A DNA stretch of 15,916 bases from Candidatus Zixiibacteriota bacterium (GTDB lineage Bacteria > SM23-81), in contig DAOVRJ010000023.1 in the NCBI GenBank assembly GCA_030628225.1, forward strand, positions 1 through 15,916, given 5' to 3'. Positions within the stretch are counted from its first letter, which is position 1. Every line of letters begins with the position of its first letter. The notes below the pieces were generated by a model that ran no database searches, had not been told where the DNA came from, and saw only the letters and a program-made list of their open reading frames with translations. Made by a program: the position numbers and the translations under genes. Shown in pieces: positions 9,390-14,869 of this stretch.

Positions 9390-9417
9390 ACTATAACATA
9401 TCCCCCTCAAATGTCAA
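9390..9417 (-). promoter_or_regulatory. Sigma-70-type promoter for the exported-protein gene
   Basis: On the minus strand a perfect TTGACA (9417-9412), a 16-base spacer and TATAGT (9395-9390) lie about 40 bases before the ATG. The -35 hexamer contains the TGA stop codon (9416-9414) of the upstream nucleotidyltransferase gene. The lysine-codon A tract of that gene ends just upstream and could act as an UP-like element. This promoter probably drives the exported protein and the LytR_C-rsfS-argS-rho genes. Confidence 0.75.
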
Positions 9418-10166
9418 CCCTTTTTTTTAGTTTTTAAGTGAGCCATGATTCTCTCCACCTCTAATAACTGATCCACGGAGTTCACGCCCAAAACTTCCTG
9501 AGGATCACCGGCCACGACTGCCGCTACTGGTAGCTCCCGAGAGCGCAAGATAGCAATGGCATCGGGCAGGTAGAATTCGCCCTGGCGGTTGTCCCGGCCA
9601 ATCTGGCCCAGGACCTCGAATATCAACGGGGCCTGAAAGCAATAAGCTCCCGTGTTAATCTCCTTGACGGCCTTTTGTTGCTGGTTGGCATCTTTCTCTT
9701 CGACGATGACATCAAGCATGCCCCCGGGGGTGCGCAGGACACGCCCATACCCCCGTGGGTCCTTTAGGATGGCCGTCAGCACCGTGGCCTTGGCGCTGGA
9801 GGCCCGATGTTGGCTCAGCAAGCGATAAACGATCTGGTCGCTGAGCAGAGGAGTATCACCGCAAAGGACTAAAAGCTGGCCACGAAAACCGGACAGGATT
9901 CCCTCAGCCTGCAGCAGGGCATGGGCGGTGCCCAGTTGCTCCGCCTGGACAACGAATTCCACCCTTTCTTCTTGGAGAGCCTGAATCACTCGTTCTTTCT
10001 GATGGCCCACCACAAGGATGACCCGGTCCGAGCCGACAAGCCGGGCCGTCTGGATCACATAGGTCACCATAGGACGTCCGCACACCGGATGCAGGACCTT
10101 GGCCAGACTCGATCTCATCCGCTTTCCCTCGCCGGCGGCGAGGATGACCGTTGCCAGGGATTTCAT
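9414..10166 (-). CDS. GlmU-type uridylyltransferase domain without the acetyltransferase half
   Basis: The protein resembles the N-terminal pyrophosphorylase domain of GlmU, which joins UTP and N-acetylglucosamine 1-phosphate to make UDP-GlcNAc. Motifs in order are LAAGEGKRM (9-17), the substrate-loop lysine in LAKVLHPVCGRPM (21-33), QAEQLGTAHA (74-83), LCGDTPLL (101-108), RGYGRVLR (138-145), VKEINTGAYCF (167-177), RQGEFYLPDAI (194-204) and GVNSVDQL (227-234). At 250 residues it ends in Lys-rich sequence (LKTKKKG) exactly where GlmU would continue into its left-handed beta-helix acetyltransferase domain, which is missing. The ATG at 10164-10166 has GGAG four bases upstream and lies 11 bases after panC. 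The acceptor sugar is inferred and another sugar-1-phosphate is possible. A separate acetyltransferase would be needed elsewhere if this is the cell's only GlmU. Confidence 0.88.
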   Translation of the reverse strand: MKSLATVILAAGEGKRMRSSLAKVLHPVCGRPMVTYVIQTARLVGSDRVILVVGHQKERVIQALQEERVEFVVQAEQLGTAHALLQAEGILSGFRGQLLVLCGDTPLLSDQIVYRLLSQHRASSAKATVLTAILKDPRGYGRVLRTPGGMLDVIVEEKDANQQQKAVKEINTGAYCFQAPLIFEVLGQIGRDNRQGEFYLPDAIAILRSRELPVAAVVAGDPQEVLGVNSVDQLLEVERIMAHLKTKKKG

Positions 10167-10177
10167 TTATCTCCATT

Positions 10178-11023
10178 TCAAACCCGAATCAACAGGTTGT
10201 CGATAAGCCGCGCCCGGCCGAACGTCACAGCCAGAGCAATGAGAACATCCCCATCCAGTTGCTCCAAAGATCGAAGCTGTGCGGCATCCACGATGGAGAT
10301 ATAGTCTATCTCAGCCCTCTCTCCGGCCTCTATCATCCGGGTCATCCCCTGTATTAAGTTTTTGGCGGACCGCTCTCCTGCACTGATCTGTGACCCGGCC
10401 CACTCCAGAGCCCGAAACAAGACCGGGGCTTCAGCTCGCTCCTGAGGCGTTAGATACTCATTTCTGGAGCTCATGGCCAGCCCATCATGTTCTCGAACTG
10501 TGGGCACAACCACAATTTCCAGATTTTGTTTCAAATCCCTGATCATCCTGCGGATAACAATTGCCTGCTGGGCGTCTTTTTGACCGAAAACGGCCAAGTG
10601 GGGCTTGACGATGTTGAACAACATGGTCACTACTGTGGCCACGCCTCGAAAATGACCGGGGCGTGATGCTCCGCAGAGAACCTGTGTGAGTCCCTTCACC
10701 TCAATGTACGAGCAGTATCCCTTAGGATACATCTCCTCAACCGAGGGAACAAACAGGATGTCACAGCCCGCCTGCTGGGATAGCCGGGTGTCCCTGGTCA
10801 AATCGCCAGGATAGCTCTGATAATCCTCCTGGGGACCGAACTGGGTCGGATTGACGAAAATGCTGACTACAACCAGCTGGCTGAGCTGACGGGCCCGCCG
10901 GATCAGGTTAAGATGGCCCTCGTGCAAATAGCCCATGGTGGGTACAAAACCGATCTTTTTCCCAGCACACCGGGCCTTCTCGGCAACCATCTGCATTTGA
11001 TCTATGCCTGTGACGACCTTCAC
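10178..11023 (-). CDS. panC: Pantothenate synthetase
   Basis: PanC joins pantoate and beta-alanine, using ATP through a pantoyl-adenylate, to make pantothenate (vitamin B5). The 281-residue length is normal. The nucleotide-binding HIGH-like motif is intact in VPTMGYLHEGHLNLI (27-41, His34 and His37), followed by VSIFVNPTQFGPQEDY (53-68), HFRGVATVV (124-132), FGQKDAQQ (146-153) and the KMSKS-like MSSRN (184-188). The start is GTG at 11021-11023, with GGGAGG about 8 bases upstream. panB, the previous pathway step, ends 27 bases upstream, and the GlmU-like gene follows after 11 bases, so all are probably one transcript. Confidence 0.97.
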   Translation of the reverse strand: MKVVTGIDQMQMVAEKARCAGKKIGFVPTMGYLHEGHLNLIRRARQLSQLVVVSIFVNPTQFGPQEDYQSYPGDLTRDTRLSQQAGCDILFVPSVEEMYPKGYCSYIEVKGLTQVLCGASRPGHFRGVATVVTMLFNIVKPHLAVFGQKDAQQAIVIRRMIRDLKQNLEIVVVPTVREHDGLAMSSRNEYLTPQERAEAPVLFRALEWAGSQISAGERSAKNLIQGMTRMIEAGERAEIDYISIVDAAQLRSLEQLDGDVLIALAVTFGRARLIDNLLIRV

Positions 11024-11050: not shown

Positions 11051-11848
11051 TCAGTAACTCTCCTCCGGGCTGGGAAATTTGGCCTCCTTAACATCCTGGA
11101 TATAGGCCTGGAAAGCCCCTCGCATCTGTTCGGCCAGTCGCGCGTAACGCCTGACGAACCTGGGCTTGAATTTCTCAAACAGTCCCAACATGTCGTGTAC
11201 CACCAGCACCTGCCCATCACATTCAGGACCGGCCCCAATTCCTATGGTGGGGATTTTTAGCCGCTGGCTGATTTCCCCGGCCAGATCGCTGGGAATCTTC
11301 TCCAGAACCACTGAAAAGCAGCCCGCCTTCTCTATCGCCTGGGCATCTTGGATGAGGCGCTGCGCCTCATCCTGAGATTTTCCACGAACTCGATAGCCAC
11401 CGAACTGATGGATCGATTGTGGCGTGAGCCCCAGATGACCCATCACGGGAATGCCCGCTCCGGTCAATTTGCCAATGGTCTCCACCATCCTCTGGCCGCC
11501 CTCGATTTTCACCGCCTCTGCGCCGGCTTCCTGGAGAAGCCGCCCGGCATTAACCAGGGCATCTTCTGGGCTGACCTGAAAGGACAGAAAGGGCAGATCG
11601 CCGATGAGCAGGGCCCTCTTTACGCCTCGCCGAACAGCCTTGGTGTGGTAGACAATTTCATCCATGGTTACCGGCAGAGTTGTCTCGTGGCCGGAAAAAA
11701 CCATGCCCACCGAATCGCCCACCAGGATGGCGTCTATCCCCACCTCATCCAGTAACTGGGCCGTCAGATAGTCGTAGGCCGTCAGAACGGCGATCTTCTC
11801 TTGGGACTTCATCTGTCGGAAGTGCTCGGCGGTCATCTTCTCATTCAT
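11051..11848 (-). CDS. panB: 3-methyl-2-oxobutanoate (ketopantoate) hydroxymethyltransferase
   Basis: PanB transfers a one-carbon unit from 5,10-methylene-tetrahydrofolate to alpha-ketoisovalerate to form ketopantoate. The 265 residues form a TIM barrel. Magnesium ligands expected for the family are present: Asp45 in VGDSVGMV (43-50), Asp84 in LIGDLPF (81-87) and Glu116 in VKIEGG (113-118). The catalytic Glu is Glu183 in VVLEKIP (180-186), and GHLGLTPQS (137-145) is typical. The ATG at 11846-11848 has GAGG seven bases upstream. It links the folate and pantothenate parts of this operon, because its co-substrate is a folate made by the pathway of the upstream folB and folK. panC follows after 27 bases. 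Confidence 0.97.
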   Translation of the reverse strand: MNEKMTAEHFRQMKSQEKIAVLTAYDYLTAQLLDEVGIDAILVGDSVGMVFSGHETTLPVTMDEIVYHTKAVRRGVKRALLIGDLPFLSFQVSPEDALVNAGRLLQEAGAEAVKIEGGQRMVETIGKLTGAGIPVMGHLGLTPQSIHQFGGYRVRGKSQDEAQRLIQDAQAIEKAGCFSVVLEKIPSDLAGEISQRLKIPTIGIGAGPECDGQVLVVHDMLGLFEKFKPRFVRRYARLAEQMRGAFQAYIQDVKEAKFPSPEESY

Positions 11849-11918: not shown

Positions 11919-12557
11919 TCACTCTCTCATGGGCACGTAATACCTGGTACCCACGTGAGGCTTGCGGATCTGCTCCAAAAGATCCTCAAGATCATCGGAG
12001 TTGTGCACGAAATCTATCTTGACCGTATTGACCACCAGAAGGGGGGAATCGGTATAGTGAAAGAAGAAATAGCTGTATGCCTCGTTGAGGCGCTGGATAT
12101 ACTCGGCGGAGATGTTCCGCTCGTAAGGGCGATTTCTCTCCCGGATTCGGTGCATCAGGGTCTGAGTGTTGGCCTGAAGATAAATGACCAGATCCGGTTT
12201 CGGGATGTCCCGCTGCAACAAGGACCACAGTCTTTCGTAGAGACTCAGCTCCTTCTCGTTGAGATTGATGTAAGCGAAAATTTTATCTTTGTCGAAGAGA
12301 TAGTCGCTGACGGTCTTCTGCTGAAACAGATCTTGCTGGGGAAACTCCATTTGCTGCCGATAGCGGCTGAGCAGAAAGAATAGCTGGACCTGAAAGGCAT
12401 AGTGGACGGGATCCCGGTAAAAATCCTCCAGAAACGGGTTTTCCTCTACCTCTTCCAGGACCATCCGGGCGTTCATCCTCTCGGCCAATAACTTGACCAG
12501 ACTGGTCTTGCCGACACCGATGACACCCTCAATAACCACGTAATTCGACTCAGTCAT
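11919..12557 (-). CDS. Deoxynucleoside kinase (dNK/dGK family)
   Basis: Enzymes of this family phosphorylate deoxynucleosides for dNTP salvage. The protein has 212 residues. The P-loop is GVIGVGKT (11-18), VEENPFLEDFYRD (37-49) matches the substrate region, VSDYLFDKDKIFA (83-95) is the segment after the catalytic acid region, and RIRERNRPYE (137-146) is the arginine-rich lid. The ATG at 12555-12557 overlaps the end of folK by eight bases (ATGACTGA), with GAGGG about 10 bases upstream, so its translation is probably coupled to folK. The frame stays open farther upstream (to 12692), but that part is folK read in another frame. Substrate preference (dA, dG, dC or T) cannot be told from sequence. 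It commonly sits beside folK in several phyla, with no known metabolic reason. Confidence 0.93.
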   Translation of the reverse strand: MTESNYVVIEGVIGVGKTSLVKLLAERMNARMVLEEVEENPFLEDFYRDPVHYAFQVQLFFLLSRYRQQMEFPQQDLFQQKTVSDYLFDKDKIFAYINLNEKELSLYERLWSLLQRDIPKPDLVIYLQANTQTLMHRIRERNRPYERNISAEYIQRLNEAYSYFFFHYTDSPLLVVNTVKIDFVHNSDDLEDLLEQIRKPHVGTRYYVPMRE

Positions 12558-13059
12558 GTTCTGATTTCCCTCTGGGCCGATAGCGCCAAACCCTCTTCGT
12601 GTCGCCTGTGCAGGCCAACAACTCGGCCATGCTCTTCCCCCGCTGTGGGTGCACCACGGACGGAGCGATCTCAACCAGGGGTACCAGTACAAAAGCCCTA
12701 TCGGCCAACTCCGGATGGGGAACGATCAAATCTGGTTGATCGATGAGCTTATTGTCGTAAAGGAGCAAATCCAGATCGATGCATCGGGGCCCCCACCGCC
12801 AGGTCCTCTGGCGGCCCATACGTTTCTCGATGGACTGCAAAACGGCCAGCAGGTCTTGGGGCGAGTACTCAGTGGACAGCTGCACTACGGCGTTCAAAAA
12901 CAGGGGCTGATCCTGAACTCCTACCGGCTCCGTCTCATACAGCGAAGAAGAGCGCAGGATCTCCATTCCCTGATCCTGCTGAAGAAGATCTAATGCCTGT
13001 TTGATCTGGGCCTGACGATCATTTAAGTTTGACCCCACACCCACGAAGACGATGGCGAT
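12550..13059 (-). CDS. folK: 6-hydroxymethyl-7,8-dihydropterin pyrophosphokinase, apparent ATC start
   Basis: FolK transfers pyrophosphate from ATP to hydroxymethyl-dihydropterin in folate synthesis. Typical motifs are VFVGVGSNLNDR (4-15), SSLYETEPVG, FLNAVVQL and the signature RWGPRCIDLDLLLYDN. The start is unusual. The frame runs open upstream into folB, but that extension is Trp/Arg-rich shadow sequence. The N-terminus expected for the family lies at ATC (13059-13057), exactly six bases after a perfect AGGAGG and 16 bases after the folB stop. The nearest conventional start, GTG at 13044-13042, lies 21 bases from that AGGAGG and would remove the first beta-strand (IAIVF). I therefore place the start at ATC, giving 169 residues. 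A base-calling error turning ATG into ATC is the main alternative. The stop overlaps the next gene by eight bases. Confidence 0.9.
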   Translation of the reverse strand: MAIVFVGVGSNLNDRQAQIKQALDLLQQDQGMEILRSSSLYETEPVGVQDQPLFLNAVVQLSTEYSPQDLLAVLQSIEKRMGRQRTWRWGPRCIDLDLLLYDNKLIDQPDLIVPHPELADRAFVLVPLVEIAPSVVHPQRGKSMAELLACTGDTKRVWRYRPRGKSEHD

Positions 13060-13065
13060 GGGAAA

Positions 13066-13071
13066 CCTCCT
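13066..13071 (-). promoter_or_regulatory. Perfect Shine-Dalgarno sequence that decides the folK start
   Basis: AGGAGG on the minus strand lies between the folB stop (13078-13076) and the folK frame. It is spaced six bases from an ATC codon and 21 bases from the first GTG. No ATG lies at a usable distance in the folK frame. Confidence 0.75.
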
Positions 13072-13075
13072 CGAT

Positions 13076-13429
13076 TTACTCCGCGGAGAGTTCCACCTCC
13101 ACGCAGTCCAGCCTTCCGGGAAGGGGGGGCTGGGGTTTGCGCACTCGCACCAACATTTGCTCAGGCCGATATCGTCCGGCAATGGCGGTGAGAATAGCCT
13201 GGGCAAGAGCCTCCAGCAGCGAGAACTCCCCCTCCACCACCACCTCCTCCACAAGACCGTAGATCTCTCCGTAATCGATGGTTTGAGAGAGATCATCGGA
13301 AACGGCAGCCCGGCGCAGATCCAAGGAGATCTCCACGTCAACCTCCAAGATCTGGCCCAACTCCCTTTCTGCGGCCGTCACCCCGTGATGGGCATAAAAG
13401 GCCATGTTCAGAAGACGAATGACACCCAT
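13076..13429 (-). CDS. folB: Dihydroneopterin aldolase
   Basis: FolB cleaves 7,8-dihydroneopterin to 6-hydroxymethyl-dihydropterin, the substrate of FolK encoded next. The 117 residues match the family. Key features are FYAHHGV near the N-terminus, the catalytic Glu region AERELGQ, VDVEISLDL, TIDYGEIYGLVEEVV and the conserved lysine in VRVRKPQPPLPG near the end. I chose ATG 13429-13427 because the distance to FYAHHG fits the family. An ATG two codons earlier (13435) and another at 13462 are in frame, but none has a clear Shine-Dalgarno sequence. The open frame extends to 13570, overlapping the aminotransferase gene, but that stretch does not look like FolB. folK follows with 16 bases between stop and inferred start. 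Confidence 0.95.
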   Translation of the reverse strand: MGVIRLLNMAFYAHHGVTAAERELGQILEVDVEISLDLRRAAVSDDLSQTIDYGEIYGLVEEVVVEGEFSLLEALAQAILTAIAGRYRPEQMLVRVRKPQPPLPGRLDCVEVELSAE

Positions 13430-13487
13430 ATTCATTCTGTAGTGGGGATGAAAAAGATCCATCGGGAAGCGGCTGTTGATGTGGACA

Positions 13488-14687
13488 TCAACTCCGCACA
13501 GCCTGGCGTTTCCGCTGCCAGGTGAAAGCTTGCTCTTTGATCCGCTCCAGGGCCAGCTGGAGACGATCATCGGGTACTGTCAGGGAAATACGCACATAAC
13601 CCTCGCCTCCCTCGCCAAACCCGCTTCCCGGAGTGACCAGAACCCCTGTGCGCCGGAATAACCGGCGCGAAAAACCCAGGGAAGTATAACGACCGGGGAC
13701 AAGCGACCATATAAATGGAGTGGCCTTGGGCCGGTGCAATTTCCACCCCAGGTCTCGAAACCCCTGGACCACCATATCCCGTCTGCTGGTGTAGCTTTCC
13801 CTACAGGGAGGTACCAGGGAGAGAGCTCGTCCGGCTGCCCTCTGGAGAGCCGGCGATGGGCCCGCGAAAGCACATCCCCTCACCGCCGCCAGCCCGGCGA
13901 TGATCTGCCGATTGCCCACCGCAAATCCAATTCGCCATCCGGCAAGGTTATAATCCATGGACAGGGAATAAAGCTCTATGCCCACTCTTTTGGCGCCGCG
14001 GGCCTGCAAGAAGCTGGGGGCCTGGTATTCGTCGTAGGTCGTCTGAGAATAGGTGGCATCGTGCACCACAACCACATTGTGAGCCAGGGCGAACTCAACC
14101 GCCTCCCGAAAGAAGGCCAGATCAGCCACGGCGGTAGTGGGGTTGTTGGGGTAGTTGAGGAAAAGCAGCTTGGCCAGGTGAGCAGTTTTTTCGGGGATCT
14201 GCCGAAAATTTGGCAGAAAATCGTTCCGTTCAAGGAGGGGCATGGTCTCTACCCGGGCGCCAGCTAAAATAGCACCGGCTCGATAGAGAGGATAGCACGG
14301 ATCGGGAAGGAGCACCACCTCGTCGGGATTGACAAAAGCCAACGGAAGGTTAAGTAAGCCCTCCCAAACCCCATGAAGTGGAAGCACTTCCAATTCCGGA
14401 TTCAGAGAGACCTCGAACCTGGCCTCAAACCACTGGGCCACTCTGCGACGGAACTCCTCAAGACCAAACCCTAAAAGGTACCGGTTATGCCCACCTTCTC
14501 TGGCCGCCTTGCAGATCTCGGCCACCACCTCCGGGGAAGGTGGCCTTTCGGGATTGCCCAGGCTCAGATCGATGACGTCAACATCTCGGCGAGCTGCCCT
14601 CTGGGCTTTTCGTCTCAAACCCAAAAACAGACCGGCGGGTATCTGGTGCAACCTCTCGGCACGCTCGATGACGATTTTCTTGCGCAT
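13488..14687 (-). CDS. LL-diaminopimelate-aminotransferase-like protein lacking the PLP lysine
   Basis: The 399-residue protein is a fold-type I aminotransferase, closest to the DapL-like branch: AERLHQIPAGLF (10-21), VIDLSLGNPERPPSP (38-52), VLPLHGVWEG (101-110), LLPDPCYPLYRAG (126-138), LFLNYPNNPT (175-184), VVHDATYSQ (207-215), SLSMDYNLAGWRIGFAVGN (241-259) and GYVRISL (363-369). Most cofactor and substrate residues are kept: Asn182, Asp210, Tyr213, Arg252 and Arg366. However, the lysine that forms the Schiff base, normally in SLSKTYN, is Met244. The phosphate-binding GSKEG loop reads GVWEG. It may be a non-aminotransferase relative, a regulatory pseudoenzyme, or contain a sequencing error (one base, AAG to ATG). 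The ATG at 14685-14687 has GGAGAGG just upstream. It is the first gene of the folate/pantothenate operon; its role there is unknown. Confidence 0.9.
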   Translation of the reverse strand: MRKKIVIERAERLHQIPAGLFLGLRRKAQRAARRDVDVIDLSLGNPERPPSPEVVAEICKAAREGGHNRYLLGFGLEEFRRRVAQWFEARFEVSLNPELEVLPLHGVWEGLLNLPLAFVNPDEVVLLPDPCYPLYRAGAILAGARVETMPLLERNDFLPNFRQIPEKTAHLAKLLFLNYPNNPTTAVADLAFFREAVEFALAHNVVVVHDATYSQTTYDEYQAPSFLQARGAKRVGIELYSLSMDYNLAGWRIGFAVGNRQIIAGLAAVRGCAFAGPSPALQRAAGRALSLVPPCRESYTSRRDMVVQGFRDLGWKLHRPKATPFIWSLVPGRYTSLGFSRRLFRRTGVLVTPGSGFGEGGEGYVRISLTVPDDRLQLALERIKEQAFTWQRKRQAVRS

Positions 14688-14761: not shown

Positions 14762-14790
14762 AAAATACAATATGTCGGCGATGTTGTCAA
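14762..14790 (-). promoter_or_regulatory. Sigma-70-type promoter of the folate/pantothenate operon
   Basis: On the minus strand TTGACA (14790-14785), a 17-base spacer and TATTTT (14767-14762) lie downstream of the groEL terminator and about 75 bases before the aminotransferase start. The perfect -35 box, ideal spacing and AT-rich sequence upstream of it support the call. The -10 box is only fair. Confidence 0.7.
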
Positions 14791-14793
14791 GGA

Positions 14794-14808
14794 AACTTTT
14801 TAAAAGTT
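14794..14808. repeat. Perfect AT-rich inverted repeat beside the operon promoter
   Basis: AACTTTT (14794-14800), one T, then AAAAGTT (14802-14808) form a 7-bp perfect palindrome, four bases upstream of the -35 box. It could be an UP-like element or an operator for an unknown regulator. AT-rich palindromes of this size can also arise by chance. Confidence 0.4.
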
Positions 14809-14826: not shown

Positions 14827-14869
14827 AAAAAAGACCCCCAACGAGAAATTCGATGGGGGTCCCTTTTTT
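14827..14869 (-). terminator. Strong intrinsic terminator after groEL, bidirectional in form
   Basis: GACCCCC (14833-14839) pairs with GGGGGTC (14855-14861), with an inner CGA/TCG stem (14842-14844 with 14850-14852) in the loop. Six A residues (14827-14832) flank one side and six T residues (14864-14869) the other, so it gives a U tract on either strand. It starts about 18 bases after the groEL stop and insulates groEL from the downstream operon. Confidence 0.92.

Follow-up and report, generated by a model that had tools for sequence, protein, structure and literature searches.

A DapL orthologue without its catalytic lysine, probably retained as a pseudoenzyme at the head of a conserved operon in Candidatus Zixiibacteriota

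The DNA analyzed here (the window, i.e., the whole stretch of 15,916 nucleotides) harbors on its reverse strand an operon whose first gene (positions 13488..14687) encodes a DapL-family protein of 399 aa lacking the PLP lysine, as judged from the open reading frame, its translation, and the NCBIfam and Pfam models. On the same strand, this gene is followed by folB (13076..13435, with homologues in the same place in the three other genomes of the phylum), folK (12550..13071, the start being approximate), a deoxynucleoside kinase gene (dNK, 11919..12557), panB (11051..11848), panC (10178..11023), and a gene for a GlmU-like uridyltransferase domain (9414..10166), all of them open reading frames named from their sequence. 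In our collection, the phylum is represented by four genomes, two per family, all fragmented assemblies with a completeness of 90-97%: the genome of the window (G000) and G001 form family f1, and G002 and G003 form family f2. The gene order from the Lys-less gene to glmU is common to the window, G001, and G002; in G003, the same order is found up to panC, near the end of the contig. The GlmU-like protein (about 250 aa) is confined to the uridyltransferase domain, the acetyltransferase half being absent, and has an equal length in G001 and G002.

A sigma-70-like promoter, TTGACA-17-TATTTT, is located 5' of the Lys-less gene (14762..14790, reverse strand); it was recognized by its motif and by alignment with G001, where the hexamers and their spacing are the same, the element being nearly identical amid a more diverged spacer. 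The promoter footprint of f2 differs from that of f1 and reads, in both f2 genomes, CTTGACTT...TTTAATATGTTTGA, about 10 nt 5' of the start codon. Just upstream of the -35 box lies a palindrome-like sequence, AACTTTTAAAAAGTT (14794-14808), whose counterpart in G001 is AACTTCTGAAAAGTT and which might represent an operator; no Rfam match for a riboswitch was found upstream of the gene. Behind groEL, a GACCCCC...GGGGGTC hairpin followed by six T (14827-14861) was spotted by eye and is likely to be the terminator between groEL and the Lys-less operon. In G003, a selenocysteine tRNA gene (L035:1863-1960) lies directly upstream of the Lys-less gene.

The open reading frame, its strand, and its length are those given in the original prediction, and codon 244, which aligns with the PLP lysine of the homologues, is indeed ATG (13956..13958, read from 13958 to 13956 on the reverse strand), the surrounding residues being SLSMDYNLAGWRIG. 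The lysine forming the aldimine with PLP is K270 in the Arabidopsis DapL (PMC3102117). In the alignment, column 244 is occupied by Lys in each of the 133 homologous stretches from outside the phylum (a set that includes a few duplicates). Two other motifs of DapL are altered in the window protein: the phosphate-cup loop, canonically x-G-S-K-E-G, reads HGVWEG (residues 105-110, 14358..14375), as predicted, and RGCAFAG (residues 270-276, 13860..13880) stands in place of the canonical K-x-N-x-D-S-G. The prediction that Asn182, Asp210, Tyr213, Arg252, and Arg366 remain also proved true of the window protein; the functional roles of these and the other pocket residues are those generally attributed to them in aminotransferases of fold type I. 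The nearest NCBIfam models are those of the LL-DAP aminotransferase, and the window protein falls below every cut-off (437.6 vs. 507 and 429.5 vs. 593 bits), while it passes the Pfam model PF00155 (aminotransferase class I/II) with 173.8 bits vs. a gathering score of 19.7. The value of 593 bits is the curated cut-off of TIGR03540, which is failed also by an f2 member (226.9 bits) and is passed by the canonical DapL of a syntenic control locus (L005, 618.6 bits).

AAG and ATG differ by a single base, and a sequencing or assembly error might thus be invoked to explain Met244. We discarded this explanation, whose probability appears negligible, since the homologue of the independent f1 genome G001, which is the nearest relative (75% identity), reads SFSMTHNLGGWRLG (SFSM) and has the same altered loop (QGVWEG); moreover, Lys is replaced by Pro in G002 and G003, where the sequence is EIGALTPPGDLLSPQPGYL or differs slightly from it and the phosphate loop contains DLR. 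The idea of a truly diverged clade, advanced in the original prediction, is in agreement with these data: close relatives lack the lysine, Met and the GVWEG loop occur together in G001, and the four proteins are monophyletic and encoded in the same operon. The neighboring Asp245, which had been taken as a further sign of divergence, is not a feature of the clade, as this residue is the usual Thr in G001 (SFSMTHN). In the phylogenetic tree, the four Lys-less proteins form one clade (SH-aLRT 98), within which the stem branch of f2 is long (2.09 changes per column). A profile built from the four gave 764, 756, 658, and 643 bits on its own members, whereas the next best score among the other 382 of the 386 genomes searched was 415. 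An alignment-based scan of the contig collection matched only Lys-bearing DapL, and a scan of the same collection with the window protein as a single query gave no match.

The extent of the changes was evaluated on the 32 positions with a conservation of 98.5% or more among canonical DapL proteins: 25 of them persist in f1 and 16 in f2, whereas a canonical member lacks 0.26 on average and never more than four. All four members of the clade have lost S107, K108, K244, M248, K270, N272, D274, S275, Y325, and Y19; apart from S107 and K244, these positions are 97-100% conserved in the 133 stretches (100% for K108, 99-100% for K270, N272, and D274, and 97% for S275). The loss of G44, Y70, G106, Y132, S241, S243, and R252 is restricted to f2, where the region of Tyr70 is deleted and Arg252 is replaced by Gln. 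N182, D210, Y213, E238, and R366 are kept in all four; the retention of four of these (N182, D210, Y213, and R366) could point to a remaining site for a small molecule. We found no lysine that might have migrated, the two lysines common to the four proteins in the alignment (173 and 233) being ordinary canonical positions, and no new conserved lysine or histidine in the pocket region. Conversely, H14, R30, E147, R154, N160, P324, F325, F344, and R345 are fixed in all four and rare elsewhere, which speaks in favor of a single origin and of a newly acquired constraint. The grouping of f1 and f2, despite the long f2 branch, is supported by synteny and by shared derived residues; two separate losses of the lysine are conceivable in the strict sense.

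The genes downstream might suggest a link to folate and pantothenate synthesis. However, among 80 loci from other phyla, 33 have an intact DapL gene immediately upstream of folK, three of these also having dNK-panB-panC, and the canonical DapL of L005 precedes folK and panB. The DapL-before-folK order is widespread, being found in Nitrospirota, Omnitrophota, Thermodesulfobacteriota, Nitrospinota, and others. Since a Lys-bearing DapL occupies the same place in many other phyla, the operon context was inherited from DapL, and the neighbors, being ancestral, say nothing about a role in folate metabolism; a new function in folate or pantothenate synthesis inferred from the operon was therefore rejected as evidence. 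By descent and position, the gene is a DapL orthologue and not a folate gene. Thus, of the earlier interpretation as a whole, the real Met, the Lys-less clade, and the shared operon stand, and a metabolic link to the neighboring genes is not supported.

A different question concerns the synthesis of DAP in these organisms. In profile searches, no canonical DapL of either type, no DapD, and no Ddh scored over the cut-off in any of the four genomes, so that redundancy through a plant-type DapL, DapD, Ddh, or LysX of the AAA pathway, with none over cut-off, was not retained as an explanation. The DapD profile matches control genomes such as that of B. subtilis, which we take to carry DapH, and none of the four; DapH, judged through this profile alone, would therefore probably have shown. 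In f2, we found DapA-DapB, DapF, and a MurE with the DAP-type DNPR motif, and LysA, DapD, and Ddh were not found; in f1, a DNPR-type MurE and LysA are present, and DapA, DapF, DapD, and Ddh were not found. The DAP genes are thus oddly split, with LysA without DapA/DapF in f1, and DapA/DapB/DapF without LysA in f2. As far as it can be recognized from these genes, the f2 pathway lacks precisely the DapL step, and it is chiefly on this account that we kept as an alternative a Lys-less protein that continues to serve the pathway, either by itself or together with a partner. According to this idea, which appears unlikely, the protein would help to make LL-DAP either by a lysine-independent reaction or as the non-catalytic subunit of a heteromeric transaminase using the lysine of its partner, for which the AspAT-like enzyme of f2 (G002:C49:12539-13675) is a candidate donor. 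A known precedent is SPTLC1 (LCB1), a fold-type-I PLP homologue retained as a protein without the PLP lysine, which pairs with SPTLC2 in serine palmitoyltransferase (PMC3794620). However, SPTLC1 is a paralogue paired with a catalytic sister, whereas no close sister subunit was found within any of the four genomes, the next best homologues being 27-29% identical. In addition, none of the four retains K-x-N-x-D-S, the lysine of GSKEG, or Tyr325, f2 further loses Arg252, Tyr132, Tyr70, and Ser241/243, and the step could be carried out by an unrelated aminotransferase. In f1, neither DapA nor DapF was detected, and the presence of the gene in this family is not accounted for by the DAP pathway. 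The narrower proposal that, in f2, the Lys-less DapL completes LL-DAP synthesis without an internal aldimine, or as a subunit steering an unrelated aspartate-type aminotransferase to tetrahydrodipicolinate, is in our opinion rather unlikely.

It might also be supposed that the gene is decaying and is kept merely as the leader of the operon, for the sake of its promoter or of translation coupling. The fact that the erosion of the active site has progressed further in f2 than in f1, together with the long f2 stem, would fit this possibility, which we nevertheless consider quite improbable. Indeed, the open reading frames are intact in all four genomes (378-406 aa), with no internal stops or frameshifts, and the residues fixed in all four and rare elsewhere likewise speak against decay. 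Moreover, dN/dS is 0.133 in the f1 pair (bootstrap 0.093-0.185) and 0.131 in the f2 pair (0.093-0.181), values that are approximate because dS exceeds 1; in the same pairs, folB, folK, dNK, panB, panC, and glmU gave 0.04-0.21, so that the Lys-less gene lies within or slightly above the range of its operon neighbors. An AlphaFold2 model of the window protein, built from 28 sequences, predicts an intact fold (mean pLDDT 89.5). Its best structural match is the bacilysin aminotransferase BacF (6l1l/6l1n/6l1o; TM 0.92 with 6l1o and 35-36% identity), which differs in having, in the alignment, the SFSK lysine motif; the TM is about 0.86 with the Arabidopsis DapL, including its K270N and K270Q variants.

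The retention of pocket residues raises the possibility that the f1 protein is a lysine-independent PLP/PMP enzyme or a sensor of PLP adducts, Met244 and the VWEG loop being adaptations. In f1, Y70, Y132, N182, D210, Y213, S241, S243, R252, and R366 are kept, and the K270N and K270Q variants of the Arabidopsis DapL were crystallized with LL-DAP or glutamate, according to the titles of entries 3ei8, 3ei9, and 3eia. A natural replacement of the catalytic lysine in an aminotransferase fold, with altered chemistry, does occur in ColD (GDP-4-keto-6-deoxymannose 3-dehydratase), which functions with a His substituting for the Lys and uses PMP (PMC8987622). However, ColD has a catalytic His, whereas the clade has Met or Pro and no acid-base group: Met is incapable of acid-base chemistry, the pocket has no new conserved Lys or His, and the phosphate loop has lost S107 and K108, the substrate motif being missing as well. 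Furthermore, f2 would need a separate explanation, and overall such an activity of f1 seems to us very doubtful. The earlier suggestion that the preserved pocket still binds a cofactor may apply to f1 but not to f2, which is without the phosphate-cup Arg, the stacking Tyr132, Tyr70, and Ser241/243.

On the whole, we consider it probable that the gene is an in-place orthologue of DapL (TIGR03540 type) that has lost the catalytic lysine and has been retained as a constrained pseudoenzyme. The relationship with DapL of the TIGR03540/PRK09276 type is evident from the fold-type-I sequence (about 40-47% identity), from the same place before folK(-dNK-panB-panC), and from the conservation of Arg366, Asn182, Asp210, and Tyr213; the differences lie in the missing PLP lysine, the altered GSKEG, the loss of K-x-N-x-D-S and Tyr325, and the score below the DapL cut-off. 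The data show the loss of the lysine in all four genomes, a single clade, a conserved place, purifying selection, and, within each family, a conserved promoter. An essential catalytic residue is thus lost while purifying selection continues, as expected of a pseudoenzyme of a PLP fold. Among animal proteins, AZIN1/2 (antizyme inhibitors) and PDXDC1 belong to PLP-protein families other than that of DapL, and no sequence relation to the window protein is claimed. They are vitamin B6 enzyme homologues without the conserved catalytic lysine (PMC11016064) and, like SPTLC1, indicate that non-catalytic retention occurs.

As for the mechanism, the split between f1 and f2 was probably preceded by the loss of the catalytic lysine, of a portion of the phosphate cup, and of the K-x-N-x-D-S motif on the substrate side, and the internal aldimine and the transamination cycle would no longer be possible. 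Since a protein that lacks the lysine in all four genomes is still full-length, in place, and under selection, it probably has a job that does not require the classic chemistry; we can speculate that the folded protein acts most likely as a scaffold or as a partner with a regulatory role, either as a homodimer or in association with another subunit of fold type I. In f1, PLP or an adduct of PLP with an amino acid might still be bound by the remnant of the pocket (N182, D210, Y213, R252, and R366), with no turnover taking place. However, the function shared by the two families is probably PLP-independent, because the cofactor site of f2 is largely gone and yet its protein is as constrained as that of f1.

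In other bacteria, DapL is an enzyme of the synthesis of lysine and of cell-wall precursors. The clade described here would represent a bacterial pseudoenzyme that descends from an enzyme central to the cell wall, conserved in position and fixed in all four available genomes of this small phylum. Annotating these genes as DapL would assign to them a reaction that they are probably unable to carry out, f2 being left with an apparent gap in DAP synthesis. The two families offer two snapshots of the transition, one with the cofactor pocket mostly kept (f1) and one with the pocket mostly eroded (f2), and the clade makes it testable how an essential aminotransferase retires from catalysis and what its retention serves.
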